Shown here: positions 21,507 through 64,000 of the stretch, one piece after another
How positions within the stretch are numbered: position 1 is the stretch's first letter
Layout: every line of letters starts with the position of its first letter
Program-made: the position numbers and the translations under genes
Notes under the pieces: generated by a model
What the model was told of the DNA's origin: nothing
Databases searched by the model: none
The model's input: only the letters and a program-made list of their open reading frames with translations
NCBI GenBank assembly: GCA_022457155.1
Contig: JAJGOT010000053.1
Coordinates: 524,501 to 588,500, forward strand
Origin: Cladopsammia gracilis
Lineage: Eukaryota; Cnidaria; Anthozoa; Scleractinia; Dendrophylliidae
Length of the DNA stretch: 64,000 nucleotides
Reading direction: 5' to 3'

Positions 21507-22046
21507 TACGGTGGCCGATAAGAACAAAACAAAAACACAAAATGAAAACAGAATCACAAAATTAGAAAACAAAAACACAAAACCCACAACCGAAACAAAA
21601 AACTTAAAACAGAATCACAAAATACAAAACGGAAACACAAAACCCGAAAACAAAATCACAACATCCACAACCGAAACACAAAACCTAAAACAGAATCACA
21701 AAATACAAAACGGAAACACAAAACTCACAACATAAACACAAAAACAGAAACACAAAACCAGAAAACATAAACACAAAACCAGAAAACACAAACACAAAAT
21801 CAGAAAACATTAACACAAAATCAGAAAACGGAAACACAAAACCAGAAAACAGAAACACAAAACCAGAAAACATAAACACAAAACCAGAAAACACAAACAC
21901 AAAATCAGAAAACATTAACACAAAATCAGAAAACGGAAACACAAAACCAGAAAACAGAAACACAAAACAAGAAAACAGAAACACAAAACAAGAAAACGGA
22001 AACACAAAACAAGAAAACAGAAACACAAAACCAGAAACAGAAACTT
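21507..22046 (+). repeat. Left inverted arm of the transposon (21-bp minisatellite)
   Basis: The arm is A-rich on the plus strand, with units such as AAACACAAAACCAGAAAACA repeated every 21 bp and a higher-order pattern of variant units. The first 200 bp or so is irregular and shared with the right arm. Confidence 0.85.
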
Positions 22047-22447
22047 GATACCTATGACCTTCAGCAAAGTCTTCGCTGGGAAGCCGTTATCGCCTTGTCC
22101 CCCCATCCCCCTCCCCGCTCCCCCTCCCCCCTACAGTGCCAATATATTTCACCAAGCGATTACAATCTCTCAAAACACATTAACATATTTCTTTGCTTAA
22201 AAAAACAAGGTTCTCAAACGTTAAACCTCTGCAAAAAGCGAGATCGTATCGCTAACCTGCGAGCAAGCCCGGGGGGGGGGGGGGGCAACCCAGCTAAAGG
22301 TGGGGGTAAAGGACTGGGTTATTTTACTCAGCCCCGTACGCAGCACCTGGACAATTTTTTCATATATTTTATTTTTTAATCGTTTTAAATGAATTATTCT
22401 CCGTGAGTATCCATCAATGCAACCACTTATTCCAAATCCAAATCGAC

Positions 22448-22972
22448 TCAGTTTGTCATAACCGTCGATATGCCAAGTAGCGTTAGGGCCAGGGCACCTA
22501 TAAACACGTCGTCGAAGACGTCTTGCTCGCTTCTGTTCAACTCCCGAACAGGGTCAATTTCCTTGAGAAGCTTCATAACAGTGTCACGGGAAACGCGTAG
22601 ATTATATCTCGTTCTAAGACATCTTGTCATGGCACGATATCCCATCAAACAACCGGGACCATTCAGTTCATAACGCAAAGCTCGCCTTATTTCACGATCT
22701 GCACTTTGATTACTTCTCCTTCGAAGATTATATTTGACGTTGATCAGATATTTCAGTTGTCGAAGGCTCATTTGAATTCCATGATAGGCAGAAAGAAACA
22801 TGATAATGCTAGCATACCTGTAGCCGACGAGCCAGTACGAGTGAATGCAACCTTCCAGCGACGCAAAATGGCTAAGAAAGGGACATGCGGGAAGAGCATT
22901 CACAAAACAACAATAATTCAATAAGAAAACAGCAGCAAAATACATGCAGCAGTTCACGAAAAGAGCCGCCAT
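22448..22972 (-). CDS. Truncated IS3EU-like transposase (N-terminal helix-turn-helix region only)
   Basis: A 174-aa frame starting at an ATG in the context AACATGG. It has a hydrophobic N-terminus, then GYRYASIIMFLSAYHGIQMS (about residues 50-70) and GCLMGYRAMTRCLR...VSRDTVMKLLKEIDP (about 106-142). The spacing and the GYR...VSRDTV..LL..LDP pattern match the region just before the DDE integrase core of eukaryotic IS3EU-type proteins and resemble the HTH_21 region of bacterial IS3. No DDE core follows: the chain ends about 30 residues later, after an unrelated tail (VFDDVFIGALALTLLG). Either this is an internally deleted copy or the rest lies in exons I cannot see. Transposition would need a transposase supplied in trans. 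Confidence 0.6.
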   Translation of the reverse strand: MAALFVNCCMYFAAVFLLNYCCFVNALPACPFLSHFASLEGCIHSYWLVGYRYASIIMFLSAYHGIQMSLRQLKYLINVKYNLRRRSNQSADREIRRALRYELNGPGCLMGYRAMTRCLRTRYNLRVSRDTVMKLLKEIDPVRELNRSEQDVFDDVFIGALALTLLGISTVMTN

Positions 22973-23024
22973 GTTTTTTCAGTTATCCTCGGTTTTCACG
23001 TCGTTTTCTAGGTAACCTAGCCAC

Positions 23025-23565
23025 ATTCGTATTTAGTTTTTGTGTTTCTGTTTTTTGGTTTTGTGATTTCGTTTTCTGGTTTTGTGTTTCCGTTTCCTAA
23101 TTTTGTGTTTGTGTTTTCTGGTTTTGTGTTTGTGTTTTCTGGTTTTGTGTTTCCGTTTTCTGGTTTTGTGTTTCTGTTTTCTGGTTTTGTGTTTCTGTTT
23201 TCTGGTTTTGTGTTTCCGTTTTCTGGTTTTGTGTTTCTGTTTTCTGGTTTTGTGTTTCTGTTTTCTGGTTTTGTGTTTGTGTTTTCCGGTTTTGTGTTTA
23301 TGTTTTCTATTTTGTGTTTCTGTTTTGAGTTTGTGTTTATGTTGTGAATTTTGTGTTTATGTTTTGTATTTTGTGATTCTGTTTTAGGTTTTGTGTTTCT
23401 GTTGTGGATGTTGTGATTTTGTTTTCGGGTTTTGTGTTTCCGTTTTGTATTTTGTGATTCTGTTTTAAGTTTTGTGTTTCGGTTGTGGGTTTTGTGTTTT
23501 TGTTTTCTAATTTTGTGATTCTGTTTTCATTTTGTGTTTTTGTTTTGTTCTTATCGGCCACCGTA
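23025..23565 (-). repeat. Right inverted arm of the transposon (21-bp minisatellite)
   Basis: GTTTTCTGGTTTTGTGTTTC units at 21-bp period run from about 23030 to 23330, followed by the irregular outer part that mirrors the left arm. The 21-bp period explains the repeating seven-residue pattern seen if either strand is translated; these are not genes. Confidence 0.85.
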
Positions 23566-24060: not shown

Positions 24061-24479
24061 ATGACAACGCGATGTCTTTCCGTATACTATGCTATGTTAA
24101 CCTTTTCTTTTTTCAACTTTCGCCCCCTGGCTTACTGGAAAAACATAAACGACAAACTGCAAGGCTGAACTGACTAAGTAAAAAGGTAGATTTTGCGAGG
24201 CACCAATGCGACAGAAACCGATAAAGCAGGGTAGCAACCGCGGACAGCTGTTTCGCCCTTGTATTGGGGCTCGTCAGCGCGGTGTAGCTTGTAACAAACT
24301 AAGAACAACTACAAGAAAGCAGTCGTAAATAGATTGCACAATGACCCGTACACAATATCAAGTTCCGTACCTTGGAACCAACTTGTCACCCGCATCACGC
24401 GTGCCACATCACGTGTTGCGGGAAACAAGCCGTCCCAAGATGTCACAATGGAAAAAACTGGCCAGAAACGCCACTGCCT

Positions 24480-29559: not shown

Positions 29560-31055
29560 TCTCGTTCAAGTCGAGATTGGGAATCCTTGGTTGTTGGGCC
29601 ACCAAGTTCAAGATTTCCTTCTATGAGACTGCCAGATACTGTGTTGTTTCCGGTGTCGGCGTTCTTTTTTCTCTCGTTTCACTCCAGTTTGAAAATCTCC
29701 ACTTTTCAAGTCAAATGATCGAGAATCCTTGGATGTTGAGCCACCAAGTTCAAGATCTCCTGCTTTGTGACTGAAGATACTGTGTTGTTTCCAGTGTCGG
29801 CGTTCTTCTTTCCTTTGACTGTTGTCTTAAAATCGCCCGCTTTCAAGTCAAACGATTTGAAATCCTTGGACGTTGAGCCACCAAGTTCAAGATCGCCTGT
29901 GTTGAGACTGCCAGATACAGTGCTGTTTCCAGTGTCAGCGTTATTCTCTCGATTGACTGCAGTCTTAAAATCGCCAGATTGCAAGTCAAATAATTGGGAA
30001 TCCCTGGCTATTGAGGCACCAAGTTCAAGATCTCCTGCTTTGAGACTGGTAGATAATCTTTTGTTTCCAGTGTCGGTGTCCTCTCGTTTGACTCCAGTCT
30101 GAAAATGGCCAGTTTTCAAGTCAAACGATTGAGAACCCTTGGATGTTGAGCCACCCGAGTTCACGATCTCCAGCCTTGAGACTGCCAGATAGTGTGTTGT
30201 GTCCTGTTTCGGCGTTCTCTCGTTTCACGCCAGTCTGAAAATCGCCAGTTTTCAAGTCAAATGATTGGGAATTCTTGGAATGTTGAGCTACCAAGTTCAA
30301 GATCGCCTCCTTTGAGACTGGCAGATACTGTGTTGTTTCCCGTGTCCGCGTCCTTCTCTCCTTAGACTCCAGTCTGAAAATCGCCAGTTTTCAAGTCAAA
30401 TAATTGGGAATCCTTGTATGTTGAGCCACCAAGTTCAAGGTCGCCTGCTTTGAGACTGGCAGATACTGGGTTGTTTCCAGTTTCCGCGTCCTTCTCTAGT
30501 TTCACTCAAGTCTTAAAATCGGCAACCTTCAAGTCTAGCGATTGGGAATCCTTGGATGTTGAGCTACCAAGTTCAAGACCTCCTGCTTTGAAATTGCCAG
30601 ATACGTGTTGTGTCCTGTTTCAGCGTTCTTCTCTCGTTTCACTCCTGTCTGAAAATCGGCAACCTTCAAGTCAAATGACTGAGAATCCTTGGATGCTGAG
30701 CCACCAAGTTCAAGATCTCCTGCTTTGAGGATGCCAGATACTGTGTTGTGTCCTGTTTCGGCGTTCTTCTCTCGTTTCATTCCAGTCTGAAAATCGCCAG
30801 CTTTCAAATCAAATGATTGGGAATCCTTGGATGTTGAGCCACCAAGTTCAAGATCTCCTGCTTTGAGACTGCCAGATACTGTGTTGTGTCCTGTGTCGGC
30901 GTTCTTCTCTCGTTTAACTCCAGTATGAAAATCAAGTTCAAGATCTCCTGCCTCGAGAATGCCAGATACTGTGTTGTGTCCTGTTTTTGTGGTTCTTCTC
31001 TCGTTTCACTCGAGTCTTTAAATCGCCTGCTTTAATTTCAAGTTATTGGGAATAC
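29560..31055 (-). pseudogene. Decayed 3' copies of the 46-aa tandem repeat (out of frame)
   Basis: About ten further 138-nt units follow the stop codon at 31056. They still spell [30 protein letters not shown] and TGNNTVSG, but in changing frames with stops and indels. Short frames at 29706-30164 and 30535-30807 are pieces of this. They could now be 3' UTR of the upstream gene or lost coding sequence. Confidence 0.85.
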
Positions 31056-34000
31056 TTAGATGTTTAGAAAATGATGTTCAAAATTGCCTGCTCTGATATT
31101 GGCAGATACTGTGTTGTTTCCAGTGTCCGCGTTCTTCTCTTGTTTTACACCAGTCTGAAAATTGCCATATTTCAAGTCAAGCGATTGGGAATCCTTCGAT
31201 GTTAGGCCATCAAGTTCAAGACCTCCTGCTTTGAGACTGCCAGATACTGTGTGGTGTCCTGTTTCGGCGTTCTTTACTCGTTTCATTCGAGTCTGAAAAT
31301 CGCCTGCTTTCAATTCAAGTGATTGGGAATCCTTGGATGTTGAGACACCAAGTTCACGATCGCCCCTTTTGATACTGGCAGATACTGTGTTGTTTCCAGT
31401 GTCCGCGTTCTTCTCTCGTTTTACTCCAGTCTGAAAATCGCCATATTTCAAGTCAAGCGATTGGGAATCCTTCGATGTTGAGCCACCAAGTTCAAGACTT
31501 CCTGCTTTGAGACTGCCAGATACCGTGTTGTGTCCTGTTTCGGCGTTCTTCTCTCGTTTGGCTGCAGTCTGAAAATCGCCAGCTTTAAAGTCAAATGATT
31601 GGGAATCCTTCGATGTTGAGCCACCAATTTCAAGATCTCCTGCTTTGATTCTGGCAGATAATGTGTTGTTTCCTGTGTCAGCGTTCTTCTCTCTTATAAC
31701 TCCGGTCTTAAAATCGCCAGCTTTTAAGTCAAGTGATTGGGAATTCTTGGATGTCGAGCAACCTAGTTCAAGATCGCCAGCTTCGAGACTTGCAGATGTT
31801 GTCTTGTTTCCAGTTTTGGCTTCCTTTTCACGTCTTATTGCAGTCCGAAAATTGCCTTTCTTCAATTGGAATGATTTTGAATGCTTAGATGTAGAGCCAC
31901 CAAGTTCAAGATCTCTTGCCTTGAGATTTGCTGATGTTGTCTTCTTTCCAGTATTGGCGTCCTTGTTTCGTGTGACTTCAGTCTTAAAATCTCCTTTTAT
32001 TAATTTAAAGGATTTTGAATGCTTGGACTTTGTGCCACCTAGTTCAAAATCTCCAACTTTTGCTTGAAGGGATTTAGTTCCTTTTGACTTTGAGGCAGTT
32101 ATCGATATGTCTTTTGTTTTGACACTGAAGTCCAGATTGTTCTTTGAAAGGCCAAGACCTACGCTGCTTTCACCATCGTGCAATGATCCTGAAAAACCAG
32201 ACTTGCCACCCGACAGCGAGAACCTTTTATCTCCATGCTGAGCAGTAACACCGACCTTGTCTTTTGATGCACGAAAGCCAATACTTGTATCATTGGTTTG
32301 TAATCCTGCTTCGCCTCCATCTTTGGCTACTTTGAGGTTAATTCCAAAAGCGGAGCTGTGCTGTTCAGTTATTCGAGAGTGTTTTGAGACGTCAGTGTTC
32401 ACAGATTTCTTTATTTCCTCAGAAACTATTCCTGAAGACGATGCAATTGTTGCTTCATGCTCCATTGACATAACTTTGTTGCTTGCATGCTTTCCTAGTT
32501 CAACACCTGTTTTTTCCACTCCAATGGAGAATCCTGATGAGGACTGAGATCGATAACTGCGGATTTTTTCTGAGATTATATTCTTTGCAAAATTACCAAT
32601 AGCCCCATCAGCAGTCACTGAAGATCCTCTTAGCTTCAGAGTATCTACTTCAAACTCATCTTGGTTTATTGATCCCCTACAATGGATTCCACTTGGCTTT
32701 TCAACAAATTTTCCAACGTCAGAACTTTGGCTTATTCCAAACTTATTAGGGACAGGAAATCTCTCCACCATGGTAAAACCAATACTTGTTGAGCTGTCGA
32801 AGGCTTCGATTTCACTCTGCTTGGAAATAACGTTTAGTTTCTCAATATTTCCAGAAATTGCATCAGTTTCCAAATTACATGCAGTCAAATTAACGTTTTC
32901 TGCATTCGTAAAATGAGTTCCTCCTCGAACCTTTACGTTCTGATTGATGACCTTTTTCTCCCTTGAGCGAGAGTCCCCCACGGATATTCCCAGTTGGTTC
33001 ATCCCAATATCCACGGAACATTTTTCCATGGAACTTGTATTATGTAACTCTGCCCCTTCAAAGTTAACATTTTTGGCATCGACAAATATATTTCCAACAT
33101 TCATGGCCATTGCATTTTTCACATCAAAATTTTTGGCTGATCCAATAAAGTTCCCACCAACTTCAGTTTTGCGCTCAGCTAAACGCTGATGGCGTAATCG
33201 TCTGCTCTCACTTCCAGTAGACAATCCCTTGTCTAATGAAATTCCGCTTGAATGGCTTTGTTTTGATGTTGACAATATCCTATCCTTGAATTGGACCGTG
33301 CCAGCAGCTTTAGCCATCATGTCACCACCAACCTGACAATCAGACCCAATTACGGACACATTCGAGTCTCGAGAAGATATACTTAGCGATCCACCAGCCG
33401 CTAATGTCGAGCAATGTTGTTCCTCTGTTCTCTTAACTTTCCTCTCCCTGCGAAACCAATTGCTTTTCACATGCTCTTCCTCACGAATGGTGACTTTATC
33501 TTGGATTACCACGTCCTTTTTAGCTGAAAGGGCTATGTTTTTAGCTGCATTAATTTCTGTTGCGGTCGCTTTAACGCTTCCCTCTTCTGAAACGATGGCA
33601 ATATTACCACATTTAGAAGAGATAGGTGCTTTCGAAACTGTGGAATAGGAACATGAAACTTCCGAAGAACTGAAAAATTCACTGCTTGAAGAGGAACTAC
33701 TGTGATGCGTTTCAATCGGATCGACAATAATATTCTTCTGAGCCTTCAAAACCGCTCTTTCGTCACCAGAAATTGAGCCACCAGTCATCGAAATCGATCC
33801 CTCGTTAGATATAACAGCTGCAATATTGCCAGCTTCAACATGAGACGAATCCATTGAGACGTTTCCTTCCTTTGACTGCAAAGTGGTAGAATCTCGAGAA
33901 CTTATTGAGGAAATACTAACATCCAGGGATTGATCTGACGTTATGGATACTCCCTTCTCACAGCGCACCCGTGCATTGTCAATATTTACCGACTTTGCCT

Positions 34001-37000
34001 TTAACTTTAGCTTGAAAAGCTGATCGATGTTACATCTTGATAGAACGATGTCTTGGTCTGTCACTGCTAAATCGAGTTGATCAGAGATCCTTAAATCTTC
34101 ATACACTCCTTCACCTTTCAGCAAGTCGTTAACTTGATTCATTTTGTCGGTTTTCAGTGTAAGATTCTTGAACTGATGATCGGCCGTAGTTTTTCCTTTT
34201 GACTTGTCGTGATAGGCTAGATCAATACCAGATTTGGCATCAATTGTGGTGTTATCTGATTTGATTTTTCCGACAACTTGAGCTTTTCCCTCGGACGTAA
34301 TTATCAAGGAATCACTGGTAATATCACCTGCTTTGCACACATTGTCTGCAAACATAATCAGTGTTATGGCTTTCTTTTCCCTCTTGGTCATGACGATTTC
34401 TTTGGACGCAACAACAACATCTCCAGCAGATAGAACACCTTCGTCGCAGAATACTTCATCGAACAATGCTTCATATGCTGAATCGGTGGAGGTAACACCC
34501 TCGCTAAGAGAGTATAAGCCAGATTCAAGGATACCTTCTGTCTTGTTACTGTTTCTTTTCGATTCAGAAAAGCCAAACCTTTTCATGATTGATTCATGTT
34601 CTTTGATTCTTTTCTTCTTCATCCATTGACGTAGCTTTCTCGCCTTATGTGGGATTGCCAGCAGCTTTTCCTTCAATATGTTGATTCTGGTGTATCTCTC
34701 GCTTTCACTTGTGATGATAAAAACTAGTCTTGGGACGTCAAAGGATTCGATGCCATTCTTCAAAGCATCTGCAACAAAAATGTTGACCATGCTATACATC
34801 TGAGCAATTCGTAGCCCGATTTCAGCAGTTGCCAAAGAACCTTTCTTCAAGGATATCAATGAGTTTGAGATTTCTCTTCCTTCGTATTCTGAATGAATGT
34901 TTTTCAGTGATTCTGCCGCTTTTGACCAGGCTTCCAGGCTTTTGACGTCAGGAGTGCAGGATACATACGCCAGAAACTTGAAGAGAAGCACTGTTTCATT
35001 CTCAATCTGCTTGTTTGATTTTAGGGTAGACCCACCAAGGAAACATGTGATGCTTTCTAATCTGATCCTTTGTCTTCCAACCAGTTCACAGCTTGCGACA
35101 TCATTGACACCACTTATCTCTTTGCCAGGAAGACTCAGCAAGAATGGTGCTTTCAAAGAAGTTATCTGACCTCTGCAAATGCCACTGTTAACCAAAGCAA
35201 GATAGGAGGATAAGCAAACGTTGGACTCTTCCAGACCTGATTCTATTTTACCAGAGTTGAGTAGTGCCCATGGTTCTATTTGAAGGGTTAGAAATGCTTC
35301 AATCGATCCTGCCATTGTAATCCATTCTCCTTTCATTTCCACTGTCTCACATGAAAAGATTCTGCTTTTTTGTGTGAGATGCAAATTTTTTTCTGCGGTT
35401 AACTTCAAATCTGACACATTCGTCATGCTGCCTGAAACGTTTATGTCTTTGGCTTCAATCTCTAATGATGTGGATGAATCTGTCTTCCCCTTGGTGAAAC
35501 CTCCCAGTGAAACCAGTCCATTTTCGGCGGTGATTATGTTCAGAGTTTGCAAGACGTCTATGCCACCGAATTCAGCCTTCTCTTGCACAAACGATTGTCC
35601 TGCATTGATTTCCACAAAGCCCACGCATTCTAAACCACCACTCAACTTAAACGTATCGTCTACAATGATGGTTGATGGCTTCTCTTCTTCTGCTGGCTGG
35701 ACACATCTCATTCGTCCTGGAACATGAATTGAATTTGCTTCGAGATTTACACACTCAATTTCAGATGTGATGGCGGCCAGTTCACATAATAGAAATACTT
35801 CAGAGCATTTGAAGATGTTGTCGGTGTTAAATGTAACGTTTTCGATTGATTTATCAACATACAGAACGTGAATGGCAATCGACTTGCTCGGACCTTCAAA
35901 AACAACATTTTCCTTAGTCGGTACATCTTCCTTTCCACAGCGGATAGAAAGACGGTTTGCATGAAAAAAATCTTCGACTATAAACGCTGAAGCTATTTCT
36001 GCACTGTTGGTGCCTTCACTCCTGTGAAATTCAACAGAGATTTTTCCGAGATGGGATTCTTTGTGCAGCTTCAAGCGTTTGCTGAGACTGAAAAGGCATT
36101 CAGGTTCGATGTTATCTTCAGAACTGGCAATGATGGAGTCAATCGCCAAGTGACCTTTCTCACAGTTTACTTCAAATTTGTCTGGTAAAACAAATGTATC
36201 GCTGATTTCGCCTTTTCCACCCAGCGCACAAAAAGAAAACTCGTTATGTGACTGCGAATGCACATGCAGGTCTTTGTCAACGTAAATTTTCCCAGACAGT
36301 GTTGTTTCATCAGTCGAAGAAACATCTATGCTAAGATTGGGCGAAGATTTTATCACTCCTTTTTCGTTTGACAGGGTTTCCGATGTGATAATCAGGTCTC
36401 CGTCACATTTGATGGTTCCACTGTTCAAAGCGGATTTTTCGCAGGTGATGCGAAGGGTACTGGAAATTAAGCTTTTGGTCTTGGTGCCAGGTGATAGAGT
36501 TATCTCACCGCTGTTGTTTAACGACCTGGCTTGGATACCTAAGTACATTGCGAAAGTTTGCAACTTGCCATGGACTGACATCTTCTCTTCAGAGGAAACA
36601 CTGGTTGAAATAGGCGAATCGATGACGTTATTTTCTTCGTCTCGAGGACCACTACATGTCATTGCCGAGTCAGCACTGATTTCCAAACATCTGGTAATGA
36701 CATCTACTGTGTGTGGTTCTGTCTCGCCATTCCAAGCACACGTGAGATCAGCAATTGAACCAGGCATTGAGGAAACAGAGGCTGTAATTCCATTTATTCC
36801 TTTGGCATGCAACTTGCCAAACAAGACAAAATTAGGAACCTCGCTTGCATCTGTGGCTTCTAAACTCAAGTCCCCCTCTTCTACGATTAGTATTTGATTG
36901 ATAACCAGTTGAGCATTGCTTCCAAAGAACTCGACGTCGCATTCTGTTGCAATGCATTCAGCGTCACAGGAAACTTTCTTTTCCAGCTGAATAAAGAGAT

Positions 37001-38134
37001 GTCGGTCCACGCGAACATAGCCATACCAATTATTTTCTTGTCCGTCCCGCAAGGCTAGCAAAAGATCTCCGTTGCTAATAAGAGCCCCTTCTCTGTCTTG
37101 CTTCAGCTCACCAAGGTCCAAAACAAAATTGCCTTCACTGACAATTACGTTCTTGTTCTCAAATACCTCACCACAGTATAATCTTCCCCCATCTTTCACC
37201 CAAACAGCTGATGTTTTAGAGATTCGGACGTTCCCAAGGACGTGAAATTGGTTAAAGCTTCGTAACATTGCGTTGTCGTACAACAGTAAATCCCCTCTGA
37301 CAAGGCCACTGATAGTTCCGGAGATCCATGTCCAAGGCTTAACAACACTTGCTGAGCCTCCAACATCAAAGTGTAAGTCGTTTCCTTGCAACTGCGAGCA
37401 GTCGTAGATATCTTGATGTACGATGCATTCGATAACAGCTGCTCGAATGACACCATGTTTCCACTCACACATGGCCAGACCACCCCGTATGATTTCTTTC
37501 TTGTGCTGGTCTTTGTCATAGGTATCTTTGTGTTTTCCTCTTCCACAGACAGCATGAAATTCATCTTGAATGCTTCGCCCATGGATTCTAACCGCTGGGT
37601 CTATTTCTTCATTTACCATCGATATGAAATTGTCGCAGTCCAGACTCTGAACTGCTCGAAGCATTCGGGAATCATTAAAGGAAGAGTCTTTCTTTGGACG
37701 TGCAGCAATATCATTTAGATGGCCCAACTCTTTCTGTATCGAGATAAAACTGTAAAAGCCCCTCTGAGCTGTATCATGTTTTGAATCTGAGCATAGCATT
37801 ATATTGTTGCACTTTAACTTGAGATAACTTTGTGCACATAATGACCCAAAGTTTGTTAAATTGCCGTTCTCAATTACGACATTTAATCTTTTTGTCAGAT
37901 TCGCATTCATCGTAGGTGTTGTGGCATCGATCTCCTGGCCTAAGACCCCGTCTACATTTACGTGAAGGTCCCCAGTACCTATCCTGACAGTTAGGCATTT
38001 TTCTTTTTCGAATAATCCACAAGCGACCGTACCGTTAATGAATACATCACCTTGATCATCTACATTTGTTTCGAAGGTTGTACATCTCAACACAGCTTCG
38101 GTGTCTACGTAGATATTACTAACATCTGTGTATC
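31056..38134 (-). CDS. Exon 3, 7.1-kb uninterrupted exon of the hemagglutinin-like gene
   Basis: The acceptor ttttgtag|GATACACAG opens the exon; the first residues are [17 protein letters not shown]. The apparent start at 38093 is a GTG inside the exon, not a true start. The single exon carries 2,358 codons. The last seven complete 46-aa units lie between about 32075 and 31100, and an eighth is cut by a one-base insertion that leads to the stop (NFEHHFLNI). Confidence 0.85.
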
Positions 38135-39642
38135 CTACAAAATAAAAAATATGTATGGGTACAAAGTAATGGTGGACTGATTAACACCAACCATTCAGTA
38201 ATTACACACAAATGTCTAGTGTTATATATATGCACGCCAAGAAGTACAATGAATTACCATCCATCCATCAAAACATCCGTCCATCCGTCCGTCCGTCCAT
38301 CTATCAAACCACCCATCTATCCGTTCATCCATCTATCCACCCATCAAACTATCCATCCATCCGTCCCTCCCTCCATCCATTCATCCATCCATTTATCAAA
38401 CCATCCATCAGTCCATCCATCCATCCATTCATTCATCTTAAATTATTTCTTACCTTCTTTAGGGATGACCCTCGCTGAAACATCCTTGATCTGAAGTGGA
38501 TGTGAAGATATTCTCAACGTTCCATAAGAAACCAACTCTAGCTTCATTCCACTTGTTGTGTTGTCGGTTTGTGATTTGTCAGTCGTTATGTTTGGTCCAG
38601 TGATTGTAAAGTGTTTGAGACTCTTGAACGTACAATCCATCAGGCTGGTCTTTATAAAGTCTCGTTGAGGTACAATCGATATCTTGATTTTATCATCCTA
38701 AAAGAAGCATTTAAAGTTATTACACTCCATGTATTCATTTCGATCTGTGAGCTAGACGTGCCTTGACATTGCTCAGTCTAGCCTTTGATTTTAATCGTTA
38801 CTACTTAAAATAAAACGTTTGCTTTTCTTAACAAAAATATCAAATAAAGTAGAAAACTGAAATTTCTTCAACACTATGTCATAAGATCAAGGGATAGGGT
38901 CGAAATAATTGTCATCTTACGGAAATCCGATTTGAAGGGAAGGGGTGGGGTTACCTGGTATCCACCACCGCTGGAAGTGAAATCTTGGATTTTTTTCCCC
39001 AAAATCTCCAAAACTAAGTCACAAAACATGAATTACTGTCTGTTTGTGTGTGTGATAAACAACGTTTTTTGCATATAGAATTAGTCAATAAGGACATAAT
39101 TTATTAACCATCATTTCAATAGGCCTCTGAAGGGCAAGAGCTGGTACAAAACCGCTAATATAAGACATACTGTCCTTAGTCAAGCATCTCGTTTTGATAA
39201 TCATTAGTTTGATATGATTAAAGTAATTAAAAAAATGGCTACCAGGAGAATGCCGCTGTTTTCATTGACGCTATTTCATAATACAGTGCGACCCGAAGAA
39301 ACGTGCGCACATGGAAATATGCGAGGACTGTTTTGACAAAAAAATACTTTAAAAAGCAGTCCAAAGATGGCTATAGCATGACTGGCGCACTTCTTCGAAT
39401 CGCACTCTATTTAAAATTTGAAATACCTTTTCTTTATTAGTCAAGTTTAGTAAGTAAGGCTTCCCAAATCCTGGCCGTGTGTGGGACAGCTCAACCTTCC
39501 ATCCGCTAAACTCCTTGTGAATCCGTATCGAATTCTCGTGATAAGACTCTGGTATCATGACTGTAATATGATGCCCATTTTCTATGGCTACGCTTCCAGT
39601 ACTGTACGGACACGCTTTTACGATAACACTCAACTTTCTCAT
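31056..39642 (-). CDS. FhaB/CdiA-type hemagglutinin-repeat protein in an intron-bearing animal-style gene
   Basis: Three coding exons (39427-39642, 38454-38697, 31056-38134) join in frame to about 2,512 aa. The start ATG at 39642 is preceded by an in-frame TAA in the same exon. Residues 1-150 are a non-repetitive beta-rich region. From about 170 to 1190 there are repeated short strand segments (NSGxI, GDLxI, SxxISx) typical of a right-handed beta-helix. About 1195-1345 is a helical, lysine-rich insertion. About 1350-2060 resembles bacterial filamentous hemagglutinin/CdiA repeats: [23 protein letters not shown] (about 1711), [32 protein letters not shown]. About 2175-2500 is a 46-aa tandem repeat. 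There is no signal peptide, no TPS secretion domain and no C-terminal toxin domain. Bacterial origin by ancient transfer is inferred; the host function is unknown. Confidence 0.82.
31100..32075 (-). repeat. In-frame 138-nt (46-aa) tandem repeat, seven complete units
   Basis: The unit consensus has three parts: [46 protein letters not shown]. Units 3, 5 and 7 end ADTGNNT.SA and units 4 and 6 end AETGH.TVSG, so there is a 276-nt higher-order alternation. The first two units ([14 protein letters not shown]) are the most distinct. Confidence 0.9.
38260..38440 (+). repeat. (CCAT/CCGT)n tetranucleotide microsatellite
   Basis: CATCCATCCGTCCATC-type repeats over about 180 bp in intron 2 of the hemagglutinin-like gene. 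Confidence 0.9.
38454..38697 (-). CDS. Exon 2 of the hemagglutinin-like gene
   Basis: A 244-nt exon from ttttag|GATGAT to GAAG|gtaaga. It reads [18 protein letters not shown] and ends SARVIPKEG with a phase-1 split glycine. The downstream intron contains the CCATCCAT microsatellite. Confidence 0.8.
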
Positions 39643-52420: not shown

Positions 52421-52423
52421 CCC

Positions 52424-52780
52424 AGTAGTAGTAGCAGTAGCAGTAGCAGTAGCAGTAGCAGTAGCAGTAGCAGTAGCAGTAGCAGTAGCAGTAGCAGTAG
52501 TAGTAGCAGTAGCAGTAGCAGTAGCAGTAGTAGTAGTAGTAGTAGTAGCGGTAGCAGTAGCAGTAGCAGTAGTAGTAGTAGTAGCAGTAGCAGTAGCAGT
52601 AGCAGTAGCAGTAGTAGCAGTAGCAGTAGCAGTAGCAGTAGCAGTAGCAGCAGCAGCAGCAGCAGCAGTAGCAGTAGCAGTAGCAGTAGCAGTAGCAGTA
52701 GCAGTAGCAGTAGCAGTAGCAGTAGCAGTAGCAGTAGCAGTAGCAGTAGCAGTAGCAGTAGCAGTAGCAGTAGCAGTAGC

Positions 52781-52836
<56 letters not shown>
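52424..52836 (+). repeat. (GTAGCA)n/(GTAGTA)n repeat, about 410 bp
   Basis: Alternating AGTAGC and AGTAGT units with a short GCAGCAGCAGCAGCAGCA block at about 52646-52666 and a pure (AGT)n end. All long frames over it on either strand are composition artefacts. Confidence 0.95.
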
Positions 52837-60240: not shown

Positions 60241-61305
60241 TCATACTGTTGCAGTTTCCGTGCCAGGTCCTCTTCGTCCATTCTCTTGCCCCACAGTAGC
60301 AGCTTCGCTAGTTTTGCGGTACGTAGAGGCCCGTGCAACAGCCTCGCTTCCCAAAAGCGTGGATCGAAGAGCTCTTCTGTAAGATGGGAGTCTCCACGCA
60401 TATATGAAAATATCCAGTGACACTTTGATGAACAGCATTAGATCACTAATGCGAATACCAATATGAATGTTAATGTTTTCTACATCGTTGTTTGGTTTTC
60501 TGAAGAGATAAATGTAGAGAACTATAATGTGCAACGAGGCCGAAGCTAGCAGGATAGCAGTCAGGTAAAACGTCATTACTGTGAATTGACGTTCGCTGTG
60601 TTTTCTCTTGTACGAGGACCTCTTCAGTACAGAATGAGTCAAAGAGGCCATCTTACGTAACGAGTGGCTGTGTTGAAGATGCCGGTTGAATGAAGTGAAG
60701 AGCATGACTTGTACAACCACTAAGATGACCGATATTAAAGTTGGGTGTATTATGAGGTCCAGCTTTAAGTACGTGGACGGCTCAATGCCTGTGAACTGCA
60801 GCATGCAGAATGTTGTAATATAAACGGAGCTAACCGTGAGGAATCCCAGAACTCGATTTTTGGAGACAATCGCTTTGAACTGATGTGGGTACGTAACAGC
60901 AATATACTGGCACACCGAGAGCGCCAACACGATGAAGAAGGACATGGTGATTGTCACTGTGGAAATAGTCCCACCTATCCTGTAAATTAGCTGGTAAACC
61001 GCACCAGGCTTGTACTTGAAGTCGGAGAAATCGGCGTAGTAGTACGTCGCGAACAACGGTTCCACTATCACACCCGTGAGAAGGTCCACCGTGGCAAGGC
61101 CGGCGATGAAAAACGTCATAGGCGTCCGGAAACACTTCAGCGGATCACGGTATATCGCTGTCAAAAGTAGAGCGTTGGAAATCACTGTTATAGGCGAGAG
61201 GATACACAGGACGATCGCAAAAGCCAGCTCAATGTGACGATAAGTTCGTAACTCGGGCAAGATGCCATCTGACAAGTTTCCTGTCGGTTGCGAATTGTTC
61301 ATCAT
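60241..61305 (-). CDS. Class A (rhodopsin-family) orphan GPCR, intronless
   Basis: 354 aa from ATG at 61305 to TGA at 60241. The frame stays open upstream to about 61440 but has no ATG, so the first Met (MMNNSQ) is the start. Two N-glycosylation sites precede TM1 (NNS, NLS). TM1 carries SNALLL (N1.50); TM2 carries ATVDLLTG (D2.50). TM3 lacks the usual disulfide cysteine and its DRY is CQY (SVCQYIAVTYP). ICL3 is basic (KRSSYKRKHSERQ). TM6 has no CWxP. TM7 has SLDIFIYAWR in place of NPxxY. Missing TM3-ECL2 disulfide and a D in the NPxxY motif recall the melanocortin/adenosine-like (MECA) branch that is expanded in cnidarians; ligand unknown. The C-terminus (ARASTYRKTSEAAT) is Ser/Thr rich. Confidence 0.85.
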   Translation of the reverse strand: MMNNSQPTGNLSDGILPELRTYRHIELAFAIVLCILSPITVISNALLLTAIYRDPLKCFRTPMTFFIAGLATVDLLTGVIVEPLFATYYYADFSDFKYKPGAVYQLIYRIGGTISTVTITMSFFIVLALSVCQYIAVTYPHQFKAIVSKNRVLGFLTVSSVYITTFCMLQFTGIEPSTYLKLDLIIHPTLISVILVVVQVMLFTSFNRHLQHSHSLRKMASLTHSVLKRSSYKRKHSERQFTVMTFYLTAILLASASLHIIVLYIYLFRKPNNDVENINIHIGIRISDLMLFIKVSLDIFIYAWRLPSYRRALRSTLLGSEAVARASTYRKTSEAATVGQENGRRGPGTETATV

Positions 61306-64000
61306 TGATATGATCAATATCTGCAGTGATAGAAATATCTCACACGATGAGGTTGAAGTCTTCAACGAAAAGCTAGTTTCCTTCTTTCCTTGCTGGCCTT
61401 TAACCGAGAAGCCAAAAAAAAGAATACTTATCTATTTTTGTTATGATTGCACGAACGCGATTACCGACAAATATAATGTTGTCCCTTTTTACCAATATAT
61501 TCAGTCCAGCTGTCAGCGAACTACCTTGTCAGCCAATATTTAATGGCCTGCGGACTTTTATATTAACAAGCGAGCTAAATAATTGTTTTCACTGTCAGTT
61601 CTCAGCAGTGAAATCGTGGTTATGGCGAGACGGAAAATATATTTTTGTCGGCTAAATGGAAATAAGCGTTTCTGCCGGGATATTGTCTTTAACCTTCAAG
61701 CCTTGATGACAGGTGTTTGAGTCTCGGAGAAAAGAAAAAAAAATATTGCAGATTCAACTTCCACTTGGATCAAATGACCACTCCTCGCTGCGATCACGGA
61801 TAGAATTTCACTTCAGTTATGGAAGCTTGTATTTATAGGACACCATCCTAAAAGGAAATTAAAAAATTTGTTTATCAAGAAAAGGCACAAAGAAAGCTTT
61901 CAGTAAAAGATATACTTGATGGACCCCGACCTGCCTTGTTCTATAATGGTTGACAACATTTACGGGCAAAATAAGGAGTCCGGTCAAGCCTACAACAATG
62001 GTCTTCCCAAGACCTACTTAAATGTAATATGCCAACGTCTCTTACGATAGCATAATTTTATACCTCGAAACGAATTTCACAAAGCGAAGGGAGCAAACCG
62101 CTTCCTTGAACTATTTCGTAATCTTCCAACACAACTGCGTTCTTATTTTATTTATTCTAAGATTACTTGGTTCTGAATAAAAATTTGGCAACGCTTTGAG
62201 GATAACTAGAGACCTTTATACAGCTACTTACTCGAAAATAATTGAACTGTCCACCGAAGACTCCAAAGACTTGTAGTGTTCATGTTTTTTTCCGTGTTGT
62301 CACTAACCTAGCGTCCCTTTCACTTCCGCAGAAAGAAGTTCAAGAGATTTTCGGTGACGCAAGCGCGTATTCAAGAGCTCACACTCTCTCTCCACCCTCG
62401 AAGAGAAAACTGCGTCAGTTTAGTTTAATATTAGTTTACTTTCGCCATGTAACGTCAAATGAGAAAATAAACATCCTGAAACGTAGAAAGTTGCTGTCAA
62501 CCGAACATCTCGCCCGATGTGTAATTGTTGTATTGCTCAAGAATGAGCCTCTTGGTTGTGAATGATAATAAACGAAATGCGTATGTAAAGTCGAACGTTG
62601 TCTATCTCCGAATATTATGGAACCCGAGCATATGACAGGTGTCAAAAACTAATGCAAATTTTAGAGTTTGCTCATATATCTTGTCATTCATCTGTTTGAA
62701 CAATGGTATTTTCTTTTTCGTTCTTTTTTCAAAAGACTCCGCCTTTTATAATTTTAAAATTAACCATTGAAGCGAAGCTATAGGGAAAAAACATTCATTG
62801 ATTCATACATATTTGCTTGATGATGTTTAAAATAATGGTAGAAAATAGCAAACTGCTCCTATATTACATAGTGCTTTAGCTTTTTTATCGATATTTTTTA
62901 TTTTTCTGAAAGTGTTTTGAAATGGAAATTGAAATTCTCTCGCTTTATACCGGTCAATAAAAGAAGTGCGTCTATTCATAACTTTTTACCACATCGTTTT
63001 GTGTTGCACGTTTTGTTTTGTTATTTCCTAAAGTAAGTAACATGAATTTAGTATAGCAGATAATCTCAGTGGGAAATGACCATTCTGTGTGTGACAGAAC
63101 AAACAATGTTTTTAAATAACCAAGTCACATTATGATTAAACTGAACAGCGCGAGATCTTCAAAGGCCACCCACGTTAATAAACTTTTATTTGCATCTATT
63201 TCATTCCGTCATATCGTTGCCTACAAATAGACATATTATCCGAGTGCTGTCAAATAAACTGCCCAATGTTGCCTTGTTTGATGTGTTAATGCGGTGTTTA
63301 TCAAAGAAACTAAGAAACTAAGACATCTGCATTAAAAGTAAGTCTTTGATTAAACAGTTTAGAACGTAAAGACCTCAAAACCTTCCGTCTTCCAAATCTG
63401 GGAGCACACTGAGCTATCGGTGCAAGCCATTTTAATCGTTCGCTTTTATCAATTTTCCCTATCGGCCCCGAGGCTCGATCACTAAACGACTTAATTACAG
63501 CATCGAAATCAATGCCTGTTGACGAATTTCTTTAGCGGAAATTGTCTTTGTGAATGTCCTTCAGAACAGGATATATAGTCAATTCGCTTTATGTTATTTT
63601 GTTATTCTGCCGTCATTTAAATAAAATCAATAGCTAATAAATTAATGTAAAGAAGAGGAAAACTAAAATATTCTTCACTAACGCAACTTTAAAGTTCGAG
63701 GAAACTCGAAAAAATATCCACAAAACGAAACGCGTGTAATAATCAAGAAAATTGATTTTGAGCAAAAAAAATTGGCAGCAGTAAAGTCGCGTTTTGTCTA
63801 CCGTAGTTTTTTTTTTTTCTTCCTTTTAACATTTCCTGAGGTAATCCAGACGGGAAGGCGTCGTGTGGTCAAAATGGAAATGAAAAAGGGTAGATTGAAT
63901 TTTTTCAGAACCCATTTCTAACTGATTTAATAACACGACATAGATCATGTCAACAGTGACTGCAATCGCCGGCCAACAGTTCATTTGTTATTGCCGGTAT
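61306..64000. other. Intergenic sequence to window end, no gene seen
   Basis: AT-rich; the 107-codon frame at 62242-62565 overlaps an opposite-strand frame and has no domain. The first few hundred bases presumably hold the GPCR promoter and leader. Confidence 0.45.

Follow-up and report, generated by a model that had tools for sequence, protein, structure and literature searches.

Giant bacterial exoproteins of the FhaB/CdiA type (TpsA proteins of two-partner secretion, TPS), such as the 2,687-amino-acid hemagglutinin of Fusobacterium vincentii, carry an FHA-2 region (PF13332) in their C-terminal half. In CdiA, the receptor-binding domain is located between the first β-helix and FHA-2. In this work, we describe a gene with a similar layout on the minus strand of a 64,000-nucleotide stretch (hereafter, the window) of contig JAJGOT010000053.1 from the Cladopsammia gracilis assembly GCA_022457155.1. 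Its predicted protein is of similar length, also has FHA-2 in the C-terminal half and also holds an insert between a first β-helix and FHA-2. Unlike the bacterial proteins, it shows no signal-like N-terminus, no match to PF05860 and no recognised toxin domain, it is encoded by an intron-containing gene and ends in a tail of 46-amino-acid repeats; its helical insert found no match in the bacterial hemagglutinins tested. We consider it probable (about 0.6) that the gene is ancient in cnidarians and carries, in the C-terminal half of its product, the FHA-2 module of FhaB/CdiA-type exoproteins, acquired from bacteria before the major cnidarian groups split, followed by intron gain and vertical inheritance, and that its product is an intracellular rod.

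The flp gene of Hydra offers a likeness, as a horizontally acquired gene fixed in a cnidarian, but the excerpted part of that report makes no mention of FHA (PMC3273482). Transfer of parts of toxin systems to eukaryotes has also been reported, in a paper whose excerpt does not mention the window gene (PMC3482391). Among the literature matches listed, there was no description of FHA-type proteins in cnidarians or of giant two-partner-type exoproteins as conserved animal genes. Bacteria-to-animal transfer as such is already known; the window gene may be a case of an exported bacterial β-helix protein turned into an animal protein.

Homology of the FHA-2 Region to Bacterial Hemagglutinins

The translation of exon 3 matched Fil_haemagg_2 (PF13332) in four stretches with 34.5 bits (curated cut-off 22, E = 2.8e-8), and no other Pfam family was found in it, even at E <= 10. 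An earlier reading made from the letters alone (the sequence-only reading) had proposed bacterial-type hemagglutinin repeats in an animal gene. The above-chance Pfam score and the profile matches given below are in agreement with it, the Pfam match being to FHA and not to a non-FHA metazoan protein. PF13332 also scored above its cut-off (22.9–40.3 bits) in all five relatives scanned (P0003, P0004, P0013, P0019 and P0023, from a family described below) and is listed for 19 of the 26 relatives. Further Pfam rows were DUF3737 in P0013 (E 0.45), FecR in P0003 (7.8), laminin G in P0023 (0.14) and, in P0019, GBR2_CC (0.82) and, above its cut-off, FlgT_C (1.2e-6). Precomputed accessions on some relatives included PF21628, PF25296, PF27386 and PF16538, the last one seen in P0019.

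Profiles built from the cnidarian proteins were compared with four bacterial hemagglutinins, from Fusobacterium, Rahnella, Sebaldella and Leptotrichia. When seven regional profiles were run on the Fusobacterium protein with 200 shuffles, only the FHA profile stood out (22.7 bits vs. 7.3 for the best shuffle). Long profiles gave 22.7 bits on Fusobacterium, 13.6 on Rahnella and 28.0 on Sebaldella, each in one of two FHA segments, and the best of 200 shuffles per protein and segment never exceeded 9.2 bits. Outside these segments, the profile of residues 401–900 was slightly above shuffles on Sebaldella (4.7 vs. 1.4 bits). A hhalign comparison of five regions with three single bacterial proteins (Leptotrichia left out, three shuffles each) gave E values of 1.2e-5, 0.003 and 2.6e-7 for residues 1700–2100. 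In a finer scan with fifteen 150-residue profiles on all four proteins, residues 1651–1800 reached 24.5, 14.1, 17.6 and 7.7 bits, values attained by 0, 0, 0 and 1 of 200 shuffles; the Leptotrichia match of 14.1 bits lies at residues 681–814, away from the place of FHA-2 indicated in that protein by tblastn.

This signal proved specific to FHA-2. On bacterial pieces cut around earlier hits, the FHA profile scored 29.7 bits on the FHA-2 piece but 0.7 on residues 1–1400 of the same protein; on window residues 1–1400 it scored -0.2, and FHA profiles did not respond to a giant repeat frame of the same genome (L009, discussed below). The strong homology to bacterial exoproteins is therefore, as judged from profile comparison, clearly specific to the FHA-2 part of the protein (residues ~1574–2078).

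Gene Structure and Copy Number

The open frame at 31056–38180 of the minus strand has 2,374 codons, and the chance of such a frame at a given place, under the base composition of the window, is about 10^-67. Joined in frame, the three exons (table 1) give 2,512 codons, encoding 2,512 amino acids, and a single terminal stop, with a GT donor and an AG acceptor in both introns. The chain of three exons with proper splice sites, the introns at the 5' end and the motif blocks quoted in the sequence-only reading were thus all recovered. Across the first junction the spliced N-terminus aligned without gaps with four of four relatives (P0003, P0004, P0013 and P0023). The second junction was gap-free with P0003, P0004 and P0023, and P0013 has a five-residue insertion just before it and a one-residue insertion just after it.

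Table 1. Coordinates of the exons, introns, domains and repeats of the gene in the window
Feature	Position	Strand	Evidence or remarks
Exon 1	39427..39642	-	Start ATG, 72 codons; opens the N-terminal β domain; GT donor, spliced in frame; alignment of the N-terminus with P0003, P0004, P0013 and P0023
Intron 1, phase 0	38698..39426	-	GT..AG; stop in the in-frame read-through just before exon 2
Exon 2	38454..38697	-	Splice join and alignment with relatives
Intron 2, phase 1	38135..38453	-	GT..AG; contains a period-4 CCAT-type tandem repeat (Tandem Repeats Finder); acceptor codon apparently common to six relatives
Exon 3 including stop codon, bulk of the protein	31056..38134	-	Open frame and splice join
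β-helix stretch, ~residues 385–649 (P0003 numbering), predicted fold like TPS domains	36648..37442	-	
Helical insert, ~residues 1200–1339, in the part richest in invariant columns; predicted local distance difference test (pLDDT) < 50	34578..34997	-	Conservation; DSSP of the model
Predicted β-helix, model residues 340–900 (spliced 1393–1953)	32736..34418	-	AlphaFold2 model
FHA-2 / Fil_haemagg_2 region, spliced residues ~1574–2078	32361..33875	-	PF13332 and profile matches to bacterial hemagglutinins
Seven copies of the 46-amino-acid (138-bp) tail repeat inside the open frame	31095..32060	-	
Twelve more complete or partial copies, the stop codon lying within the first	29565..31092	-	Seven with net indels not divisible by three

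Two other frames on the same 64 kb, a rhodopsin-type G-protein-coupled receptor (PF00001, 7tm_1; 60244–61431) and a thyroglobulin type-1 frame (PF00086; 7640–8131), indicate that the contig is animal. In the whole genome (878 Mb, 1,469 contigs) the window gene was the one PF13332 locus at E <= 0.001. No paralogue was found among the eight rows of a protein search of this genome, which comprised the gene itself, its own repeat array (five rows) and two loci rejected as paralogues. The first of these, L006 (G000 C1292:223140-223466), is a stray, degenerate copy of the 46-amino-acid repeat, 62% identical, on another contig and without the rest of the gene. The second, L009, is a giant repeat frame which, from its repeat motif, we take to be AHNAK-like; its long array has 26% identity over part of the tail, a likeness probably due to low complexity.

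The Cnidarian Family and the Age of Intron 2

Three protein searches (19, 10 and 23 rows, about 7,980 candidates scored in each) yielded 26 distinct relatives, and in two of them no protein outside the family was found at E <= 1. Six relatives are named and all are cnidarian: Montipora foliosa P0004, Clytia hemisphaerica P0013, Dendronephthya gigantea P0023 and Paramuricea clavata P0015, P0019 and P0026. The gene is real in the window and is not a one-off: the named members alone span Hexacorallia, Octocorallia and Hydrozoa. That hexacorals, octocorals and hydrozoans have kept it implies that it does something of importance for cnidarian cells, and Clytia, a carrier of the gene, is a tractable laboratory host.

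Identity between the window protein and the 18 relatives measured ranged from 45% to 89% over residues 230–2150. The closest, P0003 (88.8%), reads as one frame through both splice junctions on an 8.6-kb contig, probably a transcript contig. The N-terminus encoded by exons 1 and 2 is present in five of the 26 relatives (P0003, P0004, P0013, P0023 and P0026). The annotation of P0026 has about 70 extra residues before the conserved N-terminus, and P0020 and P0021, of octocoral type, have additional short strand-like repeats ahead of the FHA-2 region that the window protein does not have.

Six relatives, four of coral type (P0002, P0010, P0014 and P0024) and two of octocoral type (P0008 and P0019), start with unrelated residues and then join the family at the codon that ends intron 2 of the window gene. 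At this acceptor the window read-through gives a ten-residue stretch, the coral type FPG-CND and the octocoral type V-G-NPG or E-G-NPG. We read the six unrelated starts as probable genomic frames running in from the intron, although the E-G of P0008 could be exon sequence. Because relatives of both types enter the family at the same codon, intron 2 appears to be older than the split between hexacorals and octocorals.

A tree of residues 230–2150 with 19 sequences (the window protein and 18 of the 26 relatives) separated three groups at support 1.0: an octocoral-type group, a Montipora-type group and a group joining the window protein and P0003 with Clytia and P0012. Members beyond the named ones were placed in these groups by identity, and splits inside the Montipora-type group were weak (support as low as 0.099). 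On the condition that the window is medusozoan, the tree appears to fit the cnidarian species tree and vertical descent. The ancient acquisition of a bacterial gene, advanced in the sequence-only reading, is supported by the FHA-2 homology, the cnidarian family, the tree and the shared intron codon, and for the FHA-2 module we regard such an acquisition as very likely.

Predicted Folds and the N-Terminal Half

AlphaFold2 models were available for two parts of the protein, with residues 650–1053 outside them. Together with matches of a VIA second look to β-helix proteins, they predict β-helices at residues 1–649 and 1393–1953, comparable to the right-handed β-helix body of CdiA; a prediction without β-helix did not appear. 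Neither model had a Foldseek match at E <= 1e-3, so these fold statements rest on the VIA re-ranking of Foldseek candidates. The VIA matches were mostly exported bacterial or phage proteins. For the C-terminal model, many lower rows were membrane barrels at high root-mean-square deviation, and FHA and CdiA structures were absent among the rows listed, which excludes nothing.

The TPS domain had been called absent. This agrees with the sequence and with the N-terminal position: PF05860 had no match in exon 3 of the window gene or in the five relatives scanned, of which four include the complete N-terminus, and it scored 124.3 bits on a bacterial protein used as positive control. By fold the absence is less clear, as residues 385–650 were predicted to resemble the TPS domains of the HxuA, EtpA, HMW1 and FHA structures, although this stretch is internal and only 11–15% identical to them.

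The N-terminal half also gave a faint profile signal. For the profile of residues 601–750, the scores on the four bacterial proteins were 4.0, 1.6, 5.5 and 2.9 bits, and 3, 4, 1 and 2 of 200 shuffles did as well. With hhalign, the best place for residues 500–900 was 712–754 in three of three bacterial proteins, above shuffles, and the lowest E value of four N-terminal windows was 0.014. None of these values is significant singly, but together they hint at an FHA-type N-terminal β-helix, for which structure prediction and the weak, consistent signal at 601–750 are the evidence. This co-located signal led us to rate higher a reading in which the entire protein would be a domesticated two-partner-secretion exoprotein. 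It would combine a TPS-like β-helix that has become internal with segments of FHA-1-like and FHA-2 type, and a new module of helices would occupy the receptor-binding position of CdiA. Such a protein would have been at work in the cytoplasm, encoded by a single-copy gene, from before cnidarians radiated, perhaps sensing or binding bacteria inside the host cell. We put this forward tentatively, at somewhat less than even odds.

The Tail Repeat Array

Copies of the tail repeat past the stop codon are 80–92% like the reference unit, and the six other copies before the stop are 70–87% like it. Given the high similarity of the copies past the stop, the reading frame in the array was probably lost recently, unless the assembly is at fault. 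Termination within repeats was likewise seen in at least nine relatives (P0001–P0004, P0007, P0009, P0014, P0021 and P0023); a different end, SVQS[LF]E, is common to three octocoral-type relatives (P0008, P0015 and P0019).

Origin and Possible Function

A hydropathy scan of the window protein and four relatives found no hydrophobic N-terminal segment, the best N-terminal 12-mers averaging 0.52–1.27, and no toxin family was found by Pfam in the window protein and five relatives or by NCBIfam in the window protein and three. The absence of a secretion signal and of a toxin end, both already noted from the letters, is borne out by these scans and by the repeat array in which the protein ends. Since the bacterial export signal and toxin end were not found, the protein has probably lost the role of a secreted adhesin or of an inhibition factor.

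In the history that we propose, a bacterial FHA-2 gene would have been taken up before the major cnidarian groups separated, would have gained introns and would then have passed vertically. The protein could work inside the cell as a rod of great length, its stiff body formed by the stacked β-helix. A partner could dock at the helical insert, which is highly conserved, and the strand repeats at the C-terminus could act as a length-variable spacer. We favor the rod because of the lack of a signal-like N-terminus, toxin domain or export sequence and because invariant residues are most densely clustered at the helical insert and immediately ahead of it. This functional part, the rod with its docking module and variable tail, is suggested at slightly less than even odds.

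Several points weigh against this account. The intracellular localisation and the function as a rod are conjectural. That the transfer went from bacteria to cnidarians is deduced from distribution, with no donor found in viral, plasmid, phage or GTDB scans: plasmids, phages and two scans of GTDB contigs gave no significant relative, and the protein searches, each scoring about 7,980 candidates, gave no significant single-sequence bacterial match. The long profiles had no match in Leptotrichia, only three of eight protein-by-window tests being positive, and the N-terminal windows are at best weakly similar to bacterial hemagglutinins. The frame breaks at the 3' end could mean decay in this species or an assembly error, and the cnidarian status of 20 of the 26 relatives is assumed from identity.

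The main rival to the intracellular rod is a secreted fibre of the same origin that would leave the cell unconventionally, or else with nematocysts or mucus, and would be adhesive or structural like its bacterial relatives. β-helix plus FHA-2 is the architecture of exported adhesins, the fold matches are mostly to exported proteins of bacteria or phages, and variable tandem tails are common in surface proteins. Nevertheless, hydropathy indicates no N-terminal hydrophobic segment in the five proteins scanned, and exon 3 of the window gene and five relatives show no extracellular animal domain above the Pfam cut-off in spite of 39–58 cysteines. We consider this fibre unlikely, yet the strongest of the alternatives.

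The likeness to FHA-2 could also be a convergence of serine- and glycine-rich β-helix repeats without homology. β-solenoids are prone to look-alike repeats, the long-profile alignment has only 21% identity, and tblastn on plasmids gave two records with E > 1, neither significant alone. Both records are of hemagglutinin type, however, the one found with the window FHA-2 piece (E = 2) being annotated as hemagglutinin repeat and the one found with the Clytia piece (E = 4) falling on PF13332 in a Fusobacterium protein in which a TPS domain is present too. Moreover, PF13332 was the sole Pfam family in exon 3, and the profile responded to FHA-2 but not to FHA-1 or to the N-terminal half of the cnidarian protein. 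We consider convergence quite improbable.

We give about the same low weight to an older eukaryotic or pre-cnidarian inheritance, or delivery by a giant virus, in place of a direct bacterial origin. The weak fold matches include, at rank 6 (E 9.5e-3), a mimivirus 'Hemagluttinin repeat protein', and the taxon of the 20 unnamed relatives is known from identity only. Still, all six named relatives are cnidarian and the protein had no match in the viral contigs of IMG/VR. Contamination by bacterial or symbiont DNA, which might be suspected because FHA-type genes are otherwise known from bacteria, was rejected as practically negligible given the spliceosomal introns, the animal frames on the same 64 kb, the size of the contigs that carry the Montipora (43 Mb) and Dendronephthya (1.6 Mb) relatives, and the identity of at least 45% to the 18 relatives measured against no significant single bacterial match.

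Other Searches and Features of the Window

A PDB sequence search gave no match, and nothing useful came from PHROGs (run with P0003), PADLOC (two proteins) or NCBIfam. Elsewhere in the window, a type I hammerhead ribozyme was found at 24237–24283 on the minus strand (39.1 bits; Rfam gathering score 34), possibly part of a retrotransposable element. An imperfect inverted repeat at 21507–23565 is made up of A-rich and T-rich tandem units of 21 bp and shows strong AT skews of opposite sign; its arms measure 301 nt (86% complementarity) and 243 nt (97%). Finally, a CAGTAG hexanucleotide array of about 69 copies lies at 52423–52833, with long frames open in several readings.

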